A stretch of 33,693 nt of DNA from Clostridia bacterium (lineage in GTDB: Bacteria; Bacillota; Clostridia; Oscillospirales; Acutalibacteraceae). This document shows positions 3,312-9,253 of the stretch, piece by piece (positions within the stretch are counted from its first letter, which is position 1; each line of letters begins with the position of its first letter). Below the pieces are notes generated by a model that was not told where the DNA came from, searched no databases, and was given only the letters and a program-made list of their open reading frames with translations. Location: assembly GCA_017472225.1 (NCBI GenBank), contig JAFUQS010000068.1, forward strand, positions 1 to 33,693. The letters run 5' to 3'. A program made the translations under genes and the position numbers.

Positions 3312-3349
3312 AAAGCAGAAAACAAAATTTATTCTGAGGGGTATTGTTG

Positions 3350-6300
3350 ATGAAAAAAGCGTTATTGAAGCTTATGGGCGTGCTGATGGCCCTGCTGAGC
3401 CTTGCCGTTATTTTTCTTGTGCCGTCTTCTGCGGCAGATGACGGCTGGACATATGCGGCAAAGCTTCCTTCAAATGTAACTGCGGCTGATTATTATATTG
3501 AGTATAAGCACACATATAAAACAGTTGCAAAGGACTCTCCGGGAAGCGGTTGGGTGAATAAGGGACTTAACAAAACCGTTTATGAAAACAGCGGCAGTCC
3601 CTATCAATCTGCAATTGAGCTTGAAACAAGCGAAACGAGAGCCCTTGTTTCTTATTACTATTATCATTGGTGCTCGAATTCGGGAGTAAGAGTCAATTTT
3701 GCGCAGCTCGACTCTTATAATCATTATGACGGAATAAGCCCCGACGGCAGCTTTTACGAAGCGGGACAGTATAATGACGATGACGACCCGAGATATAAGT
3801 CATATTGGCTGAAATATCACGACGGTTCAAATGTATATTGCTACAGCGGCTTTTCCTGTGACGGAGCATGGGGAAGCCACGGCGGAAGGTCCTATGTATG
3901 GTATAAAATGTGTACCTATCAGGACAAGGTCAGGGTTGATTATTATGATTTTGAAAAGCAGGGTGAATGGACAGATAAATACGATTCCTCTGCCGCTTCA
4001 TGCACTGTAAGATATAAAATCAGACACACTCACTCCTATTCAGGTTGGGCGGTTTCAAAAAAAGCAACCTTCACTTCTGACGGAAGCAAGTACAGAGTCT
4101 GTAAAACCTGTAAGGCAAAGCAGACGGCAAAAATATACAAGGCATCATCAGTGAAGCTTTCAGGCACCTCCTTCGCTTATAACGGCAAGGCAAAAAAGCC
4201 GACCGTAACCGTTAAAGACAGCAAAGGCACTGTGATAAAAGACAGTAAATACACTCTTTCCTATTCAAAGGGAAGAAAGAATATAGGCACATATAAGGTA
4301 ACGGTAAAGCTTAAGGGTGCTTATTACACAGGAACAAAAACTCTCAGCTTTAAAATTGTTCCCGGTCAGGTGAAAAACCTGAAGGCAACGGCAAAAAAGA
4401 ATGCTGTCACCTTGAATTGGAGCAAGGTGTCGGGTGCTGCAAAATATAAGGTTTATGCCTATAACACCTCAAGCAAAAAGCTGACACTTCTTGCAACAAC
4501 GGAAAAAACCACCTATACTCAGAAGTCTCTGAAAAGCAAAAACACCTACAGCTATGTTGTCAAGGCTTATAAGAAGGTGGGTAAGAAGGAATATTACGGA
4601 AAGCAGTCCGCAGTTGTTAAAAAGCAGCCCTACGGAACTCCTGCCAAGGTGACAGGACTCACTGCTTCTTCAAAAACCTCCTTTTCCGTCACCCTGAAAT
4701 GGAAAAAGGCTGCCGGAAACAATGTTAAGTATTATGTGTATTCCTACAACCCCTCAACAAAGAAGTATACAAAGCTCGGAGTAACAGCTTCAACCTCATA
4801 TAAGGTTAAAAGCCTTAAAGCAAACACAAGCTATAAATACTCTGTAAGGGCATATTCTCCGGCGGGCAAAAACAAGGGATACTTCGGACAAAGGTCTGAT
4901 ATTTTCACCGTTAAAACAAACAAAAAGCTTACTTCTCCTGCAGTGAGCGGCTTCACGGCTTCAACGGAAAAGAAGCTTAAAAACATTCTGATAAGCTGGA
5001 AGGCTGACACATCGGTAAAAAGCTTCCAGATTTACAGAAGCACCTCAACAAAAAGCGACTCCTTCAAGCTCCTTGCAACGGTATCCTCCTCAACGGGCTC
5101 TTACCGTGACACATCGGTTTCACCGGGCGTTACATACTATTACAAAATGCGCACATATAAGGTAAGCGGAGAGGAAAGTGCCTACGGTACATTCACAAAG
5201 CTGCTTAAAATCACCTCATACGGCGCATGGAGAGAAAATCTCGGTATTTCCGATTTTACCTACAGCTTTTCAAACAGCTACCGAGGCTTCGGATATCCGA
5301 CGGATTATTCGATTCCCCTTTCATCCTATCAGCTTATTTTCGGCAATACGGAATTAGCTCAGCAGATGTATGAAAAATACGGAAAATGGGGAGGCAACTG
5401 CCACGGCCTGAGTGCAACATCGGCAATGCTTAATATGAGAAGCTCCGGTGTGACACCTGCAATGTTCAACACATCGGCTTCAAGGGTAAAGGATCTTAAT
5501 GTCAATGATACAGGCTCGCTCGGAATTTCCGTCAGACAGTTCATTGAAGCCATGCAGGTTTCTCAGCTCTCGTCCAATATTTACAGCAACAGAGTCTGGG
5601 ATGACCTTGACAGCCTTCTTAAAGAGGTGTGTTGGGTACCTTATACGGGTAAGCCTGTTATAATCGGTGTGAGAAACGATGCGCAGGGTGTTTCCCATGC
5701 ACTTCTTGCCTTCAGGGCGGTCAAGGTGAGCGACACACAGATAAATATTGAGCTTTATGACAGTAACTATCCGGACTCACTGAGAAATCTGATTCTTTAC
5801 GTGAATTCGGCAGGCAAGGTCACAGGCTGGTATTATGAGGTCGATGACAACCGTACCGTAGGCAGCGGATATCTGACAAGCAGAATTGAGTATCTTACCT
5901 ATGATGTTTATTCCGCAATGTGGACAGACAGAGGCTCCTTCACATCGGGCATGGCTCAGAGCAATGCGCTCATGGTCAACTCTGATTTCATCAGCATATA
6001 TGACGAAAATGACAACCTTATTGCCACAATGAGTGACGGTGAGCTTATATCTGATGATGAAGGCATATATGTTGTTGACACCGAGGATGTCTGCGGCACA
6101 GATGAGGAAGCTCCGGCAATGCTTTATCTGCCTTCGGACAAAACCTACACCGTTGTTAACAATGACGCTTCTGTGGAAACTTTTGAAGCAACAATGGTCA
6201 ACGTGGAAAGAAGTGCCGAGGTATCAACCGAGTCAGATACCGTTACTTTTACAGTCAGTGACAGTGTGCAGGCAAATGAGGTCAGCGTTGAAGCCGACAA

Positions 6301-6508
6301 AAACGATAAATTCAGCATTGTCCTTTCCTCCTCGGATAACACCGATGAAGAACAGCTTGAAATCATCGGCGAGGGTGAAGGCGAAATTGTTGCCGCTTCG
6401 CAGAATGAGGGCGAAATCAGTCTTCAGGGCTGCGATAATGCAGAGGTATATGTTGACAAGGCAAGTTCACCTCTTTCCCGGGAGCAGATTGAAGAAATCA
6501 CAAATTAA
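3350..6508 (+). CDS. large secreted papain-like cysteine protease candidate with Fn3 domains
   Basis: A 1052-residue secreted protein. It has a signal peptide (MKKALLKLMGV...VPSSAADD, about 1-29), an unrecognised Tyr/Ser-rich region (30-225), a small His/Trp/CxxC module (226-264; HTHSYSGW...CKTCKA), an Ig/MBG-like beta domain (about 264-337) and three fibronectin type III domains (about 338-425, 430-521, 529-622). A catalytic-looking region (about 626-880) and a Ser/Asp/Glu-rich beta tail follow. The catalytic region has WGGNCHG with Cys684, then VSHALL with His783 and YDSN with Asp804/Asn806, in the order expected for papain-fold peptidases or transglutaminase-like enzymes. The ATG at 3350 follows GAGGGG. 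TTG codons at 3344 and 3347 are less likely starts. No LPXTG motif or membrane anchor is seen, so it may be released or held by its repeats. Enzyme class is inferred from motif order only. Confidence 0.8.
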   Translation: MKKALLKLMGVLMALLSLAVIFLVPSSAADDGWTYAAKLPSNVTAADYYIEYKHTYKTVAKDSPGSGWVNKGLNKTVYENSGSPYQSAIELETSETRALVSYYYYHWCSNSGVRVNFAQLDSYNHYDGISPDGSFYEAGQYNDDDDPRYKSYWLKYHDGSNVYCYSGFSCDGAWGSHGGRSYVWYKMCTYQDKVRVDYYDFEKQGEWTDKYDSSAASCTVRYKIRHTHSYSGWAVSKKATFTSDGSKYRVCKTCKAKQTAKIYKASSVKLSGTSFAYNGKAKKPTVTVKDSKGTVIKDSKYTLSYSKGRKNIGTYKVTVKLKGAYYTGTKTLSFKIVPGQVKNLKATAKKNAVTLNWSKVSGAAKYKVYAYNTSSKKLTLLATTEKTTYTQKSLKSKNTYSYVVKAYKKVGKKEYYGKQSAVVKKQPYGTPAKVTGLTASSKTSFSVTLKWKKAAGNNVKYYVYSYNPSTKKYTKLGVTASTSYKVKSLKANTSYKYSVRAYSPAGKNKGYFGQRSDIFTVKTNKKLTSPAVSGFTASTEKKLKNILISWKADTSVKSFQIYRSTSTKSDSFKLLATVSSSTGSYRDTSVSPGVTYYYKMRTYKVSGEESAYGTFTKLLKITSYGAWRENLGISDFTYSFSNSYRGFGYPTDYSIPLSSYQLIFGNTELAQQMYEKYGKWGGNCHGLSATSAMLNMRSSGVTPAMFNTSASRVKDLNVNDTGSLGISVRQFIEAMQVSQLSSNIYSNRVWDDLDSLLKEVCWVPYTGKPVIIGVRNDAQGVSHALLAFRAVKVSDTQINIELYDSNYPDSLRNLILYVNSAGKVTGWYYEVDDNRTVGSGYLTSRIEYLTYDVYSAMWTDRGSFTSGMAQSNALMVNSDFISIYDENDNLIATMSDGELISDDEGIYVVDTEDVCGTDEEAPAMLYLPSDKTYTVVNNDASVETFEATMVNVERSAEVSTESDTVTFTVSDSVQANEVSVEADKNDKFSIVLSSSDNTDEEQLEIIGEGEGEIVAASQNEGEISLQGCDNAEVYVDKASSPLSREQIEEITN

Positions 6509-6626: not shown

Positions 6627-6655
6627 TTGACATACACCCGTTTCGGTGCTAAAAT
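6627..6655 (+). promoter_or_regulatory. strong sigma-A promoter of the amino-acid ABC transporter operon
   Basis: Perfect TTGACA (6627-6632), a 17-base spacer and TAAAAT (6650-6655). The start codon at 6691 has GGAGGA about 8 bases upstream. A near-consensus promoter fits high expression of a binding protein. Confidence 0.88.
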
Positions 6656-6690
6656 ATCGACACATCAAAATATTTTTGGAGGAATAAAAA

Positions 6691-7557
6691 ATGAAAAAGT
6701 TTTTAGCAATTGCCCTTGCTGCTGTTATGCTTTTTGCTCTTGCAGCCTGTGGCGGAAACAATGCAACCAACGGCAACGCAGATGATGGTGCAGCACTTGT
6801 TAAGCTTATTGATATTCAGCTTTCAAGCGAAGAATATGCATTCGGTGTTGACAAAAATCAGCCCGAGCTTCTCAAGGATGTAAATGCATTCATTGAAAAG
6901 ATTCTTGAAGACGGTACATTCGATGCAATCTGCAACAAGTATCTCGGCAACGGCACACCTGAAGGTGTTGCATCGGCTGAGCTTGACACAACCAAGGATC
7001 AGCTTGTTGTTGCAACAAATGCTGAATTCGCTCCATTTGAATACACAGAAGGCGACCTTTACTACGGTATTGACATGGAGGTTGCTGCCCTTCTTGCAAA
7101 GGAGCTCGGCAAAGAGCTTGTAATCGACAACATGGACTTTGATTCAGTTTGCCTTGCAGTCGGTCAGCAGAAATGTGACATTGCAATCGCAGGTCTTTCA
7201 ATCAACCCTGAAAGAGAAGAATCCGTAACCTTCACTGTTCCTTACTATAAGTCAGCTCAGAAGATCATTGTAAAGGCAGACGACACAAGATTTGATGCCT
7301 GCACAACAGCAGACGAAATCGTAGCAGTTCTCAATGCTCTTCCCGAAGGCACAAAAATCGGTGCTCAGACAGGTACAACAGGTCAGTCATATATCGAAGG
7401 TAACGATGCATTCGGTTTTGAAGGCATCAAGAATGCAGAAGCTGTAACCTATGACAGTGCAGCTCTTGCAACTCAGGACCTTGTTAACGGTAACCTTGAT
7501 TTTGTTATTGTTGATGCTGACCCTGCAGTATCAATTGTTGATACAATCAACGGCTGA
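6691..7557 (+). CDS. amino-acid ABC transporter binding lipoprotein, apparently circularly permuted
   Basis: A 288-residue lipoprotein of the family 3 (SBP_bac_3, polar amino acid) solute-binding proteins. The signal peptide ends in the lipobox LAAC, with Cys20 as lipid anchor. The canonical start of the mature fold (QLVVATNAEFAPFEY) appears only at residues 104-118. Between them, residues about 29-97 carry what is normally the C-terminal end of this family: VKLIDIQL, EEYAFGVDKNQPELL and GTFDAICNKYLG. The protein then stops at VSIVDTING, about where a normal member would continue into that segment. The order of segments is therefore rotated, with every part present once. Total length is normal. 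The neighbouring permease and ATPase look intact, which argues for a working importer. The specific amino acid is unknown. The family assignment is secure, while the permutation rests on remembered family order. Confidence 0.9.
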   Translation: MKKFLAIALAAVMLFALAACGGNNATNGNADDGAALVKLIDIQLSSEEYAFGVDKNQPELLKDVNAFIEKILEDGTFDAICNKYLGNGTPEGVASAELDTTKDQLVVATNAEFAPFEYTEGDLYYGIDMEVAALLAKELGKELVIDNMDFDSVCLAVGQQKCDIAIAGLSINPEREESVTFTVPYYKSAQKIIVKADDTRFDACTTADEIVAVLNALPEGTKIGAQTGTTGQSYIEGNDAFGFEGIKNAEAVTYDSAALATQDLVNGNLDFVIVDADPAVSIVDTING

Positions 7558-7578
7558 TAAAAAATAAAATCATATTCT

Positions 7579-7608
7579 GCAATACCTCACTGAAAAGTGG
7601 GGCATTGC
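7579..7608 (+). promoter_or_regulatory. intercistronic hairpin between binding protein and permease
   Basis: GCAATACCTCAC (7579-7590) can pair with GTGGGGCATTGC (7597-7608) around a TGAAAA loop, with one wobble and one mismatch. No T-run follows, so it looks like an mRNA-stabilising or partial-attenuation stem rather than a full terminator. Such stems often keep binding protein levels above membrane subunit levels. Confidence 0.6.
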
Positions 7609-7627
7609 TGTTGTAGAGGACATAATT

Positions 7628-8335
7628 ATGCTGGATTTTGATGTTAAAATTGCAAAGTTTCTGGAGCAGTTTATTGACAAGGGCGCTTATGCGAGTGTTC
7701 TTGAAGGCTTGCAGAATACAATGATAATTGCCGTCGCCGGTCTTGTTATAGGCATTTTTATCGGTACGGTTATTGCTGTTGTGAGAGTGCTCCCGAAATA
7801 CAGACTGTTGCCACGGCTTCTTGACGGAATATGCTCGCTTTATGTGGGACTTTTCAGAGGAACTCCCATTGTTGTGCAGCTTCTTGTTTTCTATTATGTT
7901 GTGTTGCCCTTGCTCGGCTTCAACAGGGTGGATTCTGTCAGTGTTGCAATAATTGTTTTCGGCATGAACTCAGGTGCATATATTTCTGAAATTATGCGAA
8001 GCGGTATTCTTTCTGTTGATATCGGTCAGATGGAAGGCGGAAGAAGTGTTGGCATGAGCTACGGAGCGACGATGATTAAAATTGTAATTCCTCAGGCAAT
8101 AAAGAACATTCTTCCCACCCTCGGCAACGAGTTCATTGCCCTTGTTAAGGAAACCTCCGTTGTTTCCTTTGTTGGTGCAACAGACCTTTACAAGGCTTTC
8201 AGAAGCATAGGCAGCAGAACCTATGAATACATGGTACCCTATCTTGTGATGGCAGTTATTTATATTGTTATCGTAATGGTAATCACAGTGCTTATCAAGC
8301 TTATGGAAAGGAGGCTGAGGAAAAGTGACAGATAA
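7628..8335 (+). CDS. amino-acid ABC transporter permease (HisM/GlnP type)
   Basis: A 235-residue integral membrane protein of the polar amino-acid permease family. Hydrophobic segments occur at about residues 24-50, 63-97 and 188-222. The cytoplasmic EAA-type loop that docks the ATPase reads [22 protein letters not shown], followed by [18 protein letters not shown], which is typical of the family. It probably forms a homodimer, since no second permease is nearby. GAGG lies 9-10 bases before the ATG. The gene follows the binding protein after a hairpin and overlaps the ATPase gene by 11 bases, so the three are one operon. Confidence 0.95.
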
Positions 8336-9158
8336 TAATGAAAACCTCATTGAGGTCACTGACCTTTGCAAATCCTTCGGTGACAATCATGTTCTTAAAA
8401 ACATTACCACCACCATCAAAAAGGGTGAAAAGGTGGTTGTTATCGGCCCCTCAGGCTCGGGCAAAAGCACATTTCTCCGTTGCCTTAACTGTATGGAGGA
8501 CCCTACAAGCGGCTCAATTATTTTCGGCGGCGAAAACATTGCAGACCCCAAGGTCAACATCAATATTCACCGCCAGAAAATGGGCATGGTTTTTCAGCAT
8601 TTCAATCTTTTCAACAACAAGACTGTTATTGAAAACATTATGATGGCTCCCGTTTATGTGGGCAAGAAGAATCTCAAAAAGCAGAAAAGAGATAATCTTC
8701 TTAAAAAGCTTCATCTTAAAAAGGGTGAGGCTGTTCCTGTAACAACAACACCGGATGAAATCAAAAAGCAGGCTAAGGAAAAGGCAATTGAGCTTCTTAA
8801 AAGAATCGGACTTGAAGAAAAGGCAGACGCTTATCCTTCATCACTTTCCGGCGGACAGAAGCAGAGAGTTGCAATTGTACGCTCACTTGCAATGGATCCG
8901 GATGTTATCCTTTTCGATGAGCCTACCTCAGCCCTTGACCCGGAAATGGTCGGTGAGGTTCTTGAACTGATGAAGGAGCTTGCAGATCAGGGTATGACAA
9001 TGGTTGTTGTAACCCATGAAATGGGCTTTGCAAGGGAAGTGGGAACAAGAATCATGTTCATGGACGAGGGACGCTTTGTTGAGCAGGCAACTCCCGAAGA
9101 GTTTTTCTCAAACCCGAAAAGCCCCCGTGCAGTTGAATTTCTGTCAAAGGTTTTATAA
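8325..9158 (+). CDS. amino-acid ABC transporter ATPase (GlnQ/HisP type) with a helical-domain insertion
   Basis: A 277-residue ATPase energising the importer. Walker A is GPSGSGKST (41-49), the Q-loop Gln is residue 91, the signature is LSGGQ (174-178), Walker B is VILFDEP (194-200) and the switch His lies in VVVTHEMG. Usual GlnQ-type proteins have about 240-250 residues. The extra length is a Lys-rich stretch at about residues 118-146, between the Q-loop and the signature, in the helical subdomain that meets the permease. The start is GTG at 8325, inside the permease gene, with GAGG upstream. The two genes overlap by 11 bases, which implies coupled translation. Confidence 0.95.
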
Positions 9159-9218: not shown

Positions 9219-9253
9219 ACGGTGTAGTCCATTACGGCTACACCGTCTTTTTT
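9219..9253 (+). terminator. Rho-independent terminator of the ABC operon
   Basis: ACGGTGTAG (9219-9227) pairs perfectly with CTACACCGT (9238-9246) and is followed by CTTTTTTG. Confidence 0.88.

Follow-up and report, generated by a model that had tools for sequence, protein, structure and literature searches.

The nearest precedent for the gene analysed here is TpMglB-2 (Tp0684) of Treponema pallidum, presented in the excerpted text of its report as a glucose-binding lipoprotein with a Type I fold that is naturally circularly permuted, and whose relatives ('Type Ic / Cluster Bc') come mostly from treponemes and Gram-positive bacteria, many of which live as commensals in the gut (PMC4990184). 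Both are natural circular permutations of a lipid-anchored ABC binding protein, but TpMglB-2, according to the same excerpt, binds sugar and has three hinges, its rotation adding a fourth crossover (PMC4990184), whereas the family described here has the amino-acid-binding family-3 fold, appears to keep both of its two hinges and is cut at four different points. The significant Pfam, NCBIfam and PDB matches listed for our protein were amino-acid family-3 proteins and their relatives, with no Type I sugar-binding fold like that of TpMglB-2 among them. We take the family-3 amino-acid fold to be Type II.

In GlnPQ, as given in part of PMC8025302, the C-terminus of one substrate-binding domain leads into the N-terminus of the next through a 14-residue linker; these permease-fused tandem domains (6h30) belong to the same domain family and contain the same kind of junction, but they are whole canonical domains, unrotated. 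The canonical proteins GlnH/GlnBP, HisJ, ArtJ and AncQR/AncCDT-1 (1ggg, 1hsl, 2pvu, 4zv1, 5t0w) are homologous to ours segment by segment and differ in segment order. The permuted halves of the Thermotoga ribose-binding protein also present a periplasmic-binding-protein fold in rotated form, but, as far as the excerpt of PMC9815098 goes, they are half-proteins and not natural full-length rotated genes. In the accessible portion of PMC3779223, the circular-permutation cases are enzymes. We found no report of a permuted family-3 binding protein in open PMC papers, a scope outside which lie most subscription journals and all bioRxiv preprints. There was likewise no solved permuted family-3 structure among the best 60 of 103 PDB sequences matched by a profile of the alpha type defined below or the best 60 of 102 matched by a beta profile, and within these sets a long collinear best stretch was seen only for the tandem 6h30.

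A binding protein in rotated order

The window, a stretch of 33,693 nucleotides from a Clostridia bacterium (GCA_017472225.1, contig JAFUQS010000068.1), contains a compact operon in which a permease and an ATPase follow a binding protein, as in importer operons; we take this operon type to be that of a PAAT-type ABC importer. The features of the locus are as follows.

6627..6655, + strand: sigma-70-like promoter, TTGACA-17-TAAAAT (11/12), with TG before the -10; consensus match only
6671..6780, + strand: leader module comprising the ribosome-binding site GGAGG (6678-6682), signal peptide, lipobox LAAC and linker GGNNATNGNA; similar at the DNA level to other lipoprotein genes of the same genome
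6691..7557, + strand: open reading frame of 288 aa, alpha-type circularly permuted family-3 solute-binding lipoprotein; ATG start, stop present
6748-6750, + strand: codon of Cys20 in the lipobox LAAC
6799..6822, + strand: residues 37-44, VKLIDIQL, the small-lobe segment that precedes hinge 2 in canonical order and is now the N-terminal strand of the fold
6823..6837, + strand: hinge 2 segment, residues 45-49, SSEEY, aligned to GlnH 181-185
6838..6945, + strand: residues 50-85, lobe 1b, the canonical C-terminal part of the large lobe (PDB and HMM alignments)
6946..7002, + strand: linker, residues 86-104, GNGTPEGVASAELDTTKDQ, connecting the canonical C-terminus to the canonical N-terminus
7003..7242, + strand: residues 105-184, lobe 1a, the canonical N-terminal part of the large lobe (PDB and HMM alignments)
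7243..7257, + strand: hinge 1 segment, residues 185-189, YYKSA, aligned to GlnH 85-89
7258..7554, + strand: residues 190-288, the small lobe minus its last segment, with the new C-terminus after helix 276-287
7575..7618, + strand: intergenic stem-loop between the binding-protein and permease genes (z -3.7), which perhaps sets the ratio of binding protein to permease
7628..8335, + strand: ABC permease, BPD_transp_1 (PF00528, Pfam)
8325..9158, + strand: ABC transporter ATPase, ABC_tran (PF00005, Pfam)
9219..9246, + strand: intrinsic-terminator-like hairpin 3' of the operon; consensus match only

Upstream of the operon, 3344-6508 encodes a 1054-aa protein with two fibronectin type III matches and a listed start codon of TTG. 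The stem-loop at 7575-7618 was also present in all four relatives tried (loci L042, L043, L044 and L048; z -3.2 to -5.2).

The open reading frame carries a signal peptide and LAAC at Cys20, the marks of a bacterial lipoprotein (lipidation is predicted from sequence), and it belongs to SBP_bac_3 (Pfam PF00497) with 109.7 bits against a cut-off of 26.4, in two stretches. An earlier note on this DNA had read the gene as a genuine rotation, neither duplication nor truncation, and the alignments bear this out. The best phmmer match in the PDB, AncQR (4zv1), pairs query residues 35-86 with chain positions 181-232 and residues 104-281 with positions 11-173; GlnH (1ggg) gives the same inverted order, with 37-87 at 173-223 and 104-257 at 4-159. 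An HMM trained solely on 12 canonical relatives (219 positions) places residues 37-85 at model positions 168-216 and residues 105-287 at 2-166. Because these two pieces are complementary, each segment is present once; an extra or missing domain was rejected on this coverage. The canonical order of lobe 1a, lobe 2 and lobe 1b is absent, and with its inverted order the protein is therefore a permuted variant and not a standard SBP_bac_3 member. These matches confirm the product as a family-3 binding lipoprotein in rotated order: lipobox, canonical C-terminal block (37-85), linker and then the rest. The block follows the lipobox as had been claimed, though with an extent of about 34-88 plus a linker to 104 it is slightly shorter than the proposed 29-97.

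Rotating the window chain in silico raised its best single-domain score from 153.8 to 193.7 bits, a gain of 40, with the optimum at a chain start in or adjoining the linker (first residue 90-102). A gain above 20 bits was obtained for 91 of 134 permuted proteins and for none of 28 canonical controls, in a comparison that leaves out five permease-fused permuted proteins and in which 12 of the controls had trained the HMM. The other 43 permuted proteins gained 20 bits or less, which we take to reflect domains split by long leaders and linkers. In a standard Pfam scan such a protein passes for an ordinary SBP_bac_3 member matched in two stretches, and the rotation goes unflagged.

Lobes, hinges and the lipid anchor

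The structure prediction that the earlier note had called for gave a confident model. With an alignment of 25 sequences, AlphaFold2 reached a mean pLDDT of 87.9 and a pTM of 0.78; residues 33-288 are confident, the blocks covering 41-90 score 90-98, and residues 1-32 are the sole stretch below 50. The model has a strand at residues 37-40, and residue 37 aligns to GlnH 173. The best Foldseek matches in the PDB were family-3 amino-acid-binding proteins (ancestral and glutamine/arginine-binding), over about 185 columns of 288 residues with a TM of 0.53 by query. A partial alignment of this kind is expected because Foldseek is a sequential aligner and the chain is rotated, and it is no proof that the moved block takes its canonical place.

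We took the limits of hinge 2 in GlnH as 181-185. The available text of PMC13229503 gives the domain limits of GlnBP as 5-84 and 186-224 for the large domain and 90-180 for the small one, and its hinge passage prints 85-89, 181 and 189. By the GlnH alignment and these limits, seen in that partial source, the alpha cut at about GlnH 171-172 falls within the small lobe, some nine residues ahead of the second hinge; this agrees with the earlier claim that the new ends lie near the lobe crossover. The beta cut maps to about GlnH 95-97, with gamma and delta in between (our mapping from HMM positions), so that all four cut points appear to lie inside the small lobe. We had considered a single-hinge reading, in which the cuts fall exactly at the crossovers and one hinge is lost, and dropped it when the GlnH alignment put both cuts within the small lobe. 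If the cuts lie there, both hinge segments are left intact, and it is the small lobe that is interrupted, with the large lobe inserted into it as one unbroken piece. The small lobe would thus carry both termini, inverting the nesting of the lobes while keeping both hinge crossovers. The N-terminal lipid anchor would then pull on the small lobe and no longer on the large one, a change of tethered lobe that the earlier note had also deduced and that we infer from sequence. The window protein presumably works as a Venus-flytrap.

Four cut points in Clostridia

We collected 139 distinct untruncated permuted proteins and sorted them with the canonical-only HMM into alpha (97), beta (27), gamma (12) and delta (3) types. 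The cut in the canonical model lies at about 166 in alpha, the type of the window gene, at about 92-96 in beta, at about 104 in gamma and at about 125 in delta. Types were assigned by HMM end positions, gamma being split from beta by naming loci by hand, and three loci were left out: contig ends truncate L068 and L208, and the cut in L206 is ambiguous. An order-level search with the alpha profile (E <= 1e-40) returned matches in other registers, and reading them revealed the further permuted types; of its weak beta-like rows, three were taken in (L137-L139), and one more (G153) came through the class search. Since they were gathered with permuted queries, the 139 proteins are no measure of prevalence.

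Among the 394 genomes of the order sample (own included), alpha was present in 32 and gamma in 11. The class sample of 391 genomes (own included) held 58 with a permuted protein and a full-span junction match, 37 of them alpha and 21 beta; the other full-span rows, outside the 58, were L206 (ambiguous), L208 (truncated), L210 (an array) and G438 (two internal stops). In the phylum sample (398 genomes, own included), eight had a single permuted domain and one more had a permuted array. For the class and phylum samples the query was a junction profile, A3, that runs from lobe 1b through the linker into the start of lobe 1a; cuts inside lobe 1b or early lobe 1a would therefore escape it, and the counts do not imply that such cuts are absent. 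A loose ad hoc pattern found a lipobox-like motif in 125 of the 139 proteins. Permuted genes also occur close together: in genome G299 an alpha and a gamma gene adjoin (L120:1485-3261, - strand), and in genome G373 two gamma-type genes lie about 1.5 kb apart (L129:803-4219).

Relationships among the permuted proteins

For the trees, permuted proteins were first put back in canonical order and the linkers were almost wholly left out, as were near-duplicates of the same type (75% identity; a few rows of alpha2, alpha3 and beta were restored), the loci L068, L208 and L206, and six far canonical rows. A tree of 82 rows, which additionally omits 25 alpha1 rows and four tandem-array domains, requires 10 topology changes, and its starred branches force at least four for alpha and at least three for beta; a quick tree of 111 rows contains 12. 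These counts do not separate gain from loss. Gamma forms one clade (support 100/98) within alpha1, and in some of its members the linker ends as in alpha1, consistent with an already rotated or tandem ancestor having been cut a second time. The linkers read KYFGDGTP..V.SAELD.SKDQLVVATN in alpha1, YISG..HDL.FQ..EGKEELHMATN in alpha2, YIPSG...TTIEEGKLIMATN in alpha3 and YIGDDTKGKSPY in beta1.

The shared leader

We found the leader module of the window gene (6671-6780) repeated at seven other places in the genome (L225-L231), with 73-81% DNA identity. In the six copies whose genes were read, similarity fell to background after about codon 30 in five and after about codon 23 in L230. The bodies behind these six leaders are NMT1_3, SBP_bac_3, ABC_sub_bind, Bmp (twice) and, in one case, nothing beyond a DUF4358 match below threshold. 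This recurrence suggests leader shuffling or gene conversion, and we offer the suggestion that a shared leader could supply a new N-terminus to a rearranged gene.

Alternative explanations

A rotated order could come from an assembly chimera or a mis-joined contig, and the window genome is indeed a draft of 111 contigs. The order is, however, common to many independent assemblies, four single-contig genomes with the alpha type among them (G277, G615, G643 and G762), and the gene has an intact reading frame under purifying selection (dN 0.06-0.21 against dS 0.72-1.56, window gene versus five homologues), so we give an assembly artefact practically no credence. The search for homologues of the same order that the note had recommended found them in many genomes, together with the other cut points, which it had missed: at least 17 of 59 relatives have one that is full-length and collinear, and 14 of these belong to the same genus, which is represented by 33 genomes; in named GTDB records there are 51 loci, of which 27 are permuted, one of the 27 ending at a contig end. 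The note had also explained the rotation by a tandem duplication followed by deletion at microhomology, citing a near-identical stretch, CAAYCAACGGC, at both joints. That pair exists (CAACCAACGGC at 6764-6774 and CAATCAACGGC at 7544-7554), and the window holds five matches with up to one mismatch where 1.0 would be expected, but the 5' copy sits in the leader module that is shared with other genes. Among 223 loci, both copies are confined to those of the window's own gene, L015 and L044 having the 3' copy only, whereas the rotated order is common to homologues down to 48% identity, so the rearrangement is ancestral. Of 96 alpha genes, 5 have an exact 9-mer common to both ends, and of 2000 random pairings 94 do, which is chance level in a test that, being exact, does not count the window's own pair with its one mismatch. 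On the distribution of the pair, the 9-mer test and the recurrence of the leader module, we rejected the microhomology scar, and it is highly improbable that a recent tandem duplication with local microhomology deletion made the window gene.

The permuted protein might instead be a sensor or decoy and not a transporter component; two permuted genes can adjoin, as in G299 (L120), which means that some copies could do without a permease to serve. We consider this role very unlikely, because a permease lies downstream or is fused in 133 of the 139 (93/97 alpha, 26/27 beta, 11/12 gamma and 3/3 delta) and the pocket residues Phe, Phe, Arg and Asp (F113, F150, R175 and D275), whose GlnH counterparts we take to line the amino-acid pocket, are invariant in 25 of 25 aligned homologues. 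A further possibility is that one ancient permutation, later reshuffled, stands behind all permuted family-3 proteins, the scatter in the tree being only apparent. AU tests leave unrejected alpha1 (with gamma) together with alpha2 (p 0.166) or with alpha3 (0.106), alpha2 with alpha3 (0.154) and alpha1-3 with gamma (0.107), and alpha3, at 63% best identity to alpha2 and 60% to any canonical protein in the set, is slightly nearer the former, so alpha2 and alpha3 could share an origin. The same tests reject one clade of all permuted proteins (p 0.0004), all beta as one (7e-5), beta1 with beta3 (0.027; this grouping was defined once the tree was known) and all alpha and gamma including L207 (0.001). 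Alpha2, put in canonical order, is up to 68% identical to canonical proteins and at most 45% to alpha1, and the linkers, although almost wholly outside the tree, differ by group. A single permutation is accordingly unlikely, and rotation at different cut points has probably recurred in Clostridia, with several independent origins.

Tandem arrays as a probable source of rotated genes

We found that the alpha and beta profiles share the same best PDB chain, the GlnP SBD1-SBD2 tandem 6h30, which the alpha profile reads at 187-395 and the beta profile at 97-325. Fusions to a permease occur both with arrays and with single domains: L136 joins three canonical domains in tandem to a permease, and a single permuted domain is fused to one in L131 (alpha) and in L137, L171, L185 and L188 (beta). 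Two permease-fused permuted tandem arrays (L210:653-2911 and L214:529-2793) have half-domains at their start and end, running from the rear portion of one domain through another that is complete or almost so to the front portion of a further domain and then the permease; each is the shifted register of a canonical tandem array.

Tandem GlnP-like arrays are the likely source of the rotated forms. The route would start from an array of binding domains of the GlnP kind (domain, linker, domain, often permease-fused). Once the leading part of the first copy and the trailing part of the last one were lost, a lipoprotein leader would be followed by a single domain in shifted register, and this would have happened repeatedly in Clostridia, at different cut points. 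We favour such trimming over a single-gene event because arrays would supply the junction that is needed. We found no array clearly ancestral to the window's lineage, and the route is reconstructed from present-day arrays. We are highly confident that the window gene is a putatively working natural circular permutant, the amino-acid-binding lipoprotein of a PAAT-type ABC importer, with a probable origin in a tandem array. With more modest confidence we favour the account as a whole, in which permutation would be recurrent in Clostridia with at least four small-lobe cuts, inverted lobe nesting, hinges kept and a moved anchor, GlnP-like arrays would act as the generator, at least one lineage, gamma, would have been permuted twice and shared leaders would supply the N-termini.

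The wider pattern of recurrence is a more interesting result than the rotation of the window gene itself. To our knowledge, most natural circular permutations on record are isolated, distant cases; here a single well-studied and dynamic fold offers several cut points, probable repeated origins, canonical relatives as close as 68% identity and living tandem arrays as possible intermediates. Several cut points, close canonical relatives and living arrays together make the duplication-and-trimming model testable by phylogeny. The family also provides natural experiments on how chain connectivity and anchoring point affect opening and closing and the delivery of substrate to the transporter. Among plasmid records, 270 matched, and in 2 of these one place spanned 80% or more of the query; the best was a fused binding-protein/permease gene of Enterococcus faecalis.
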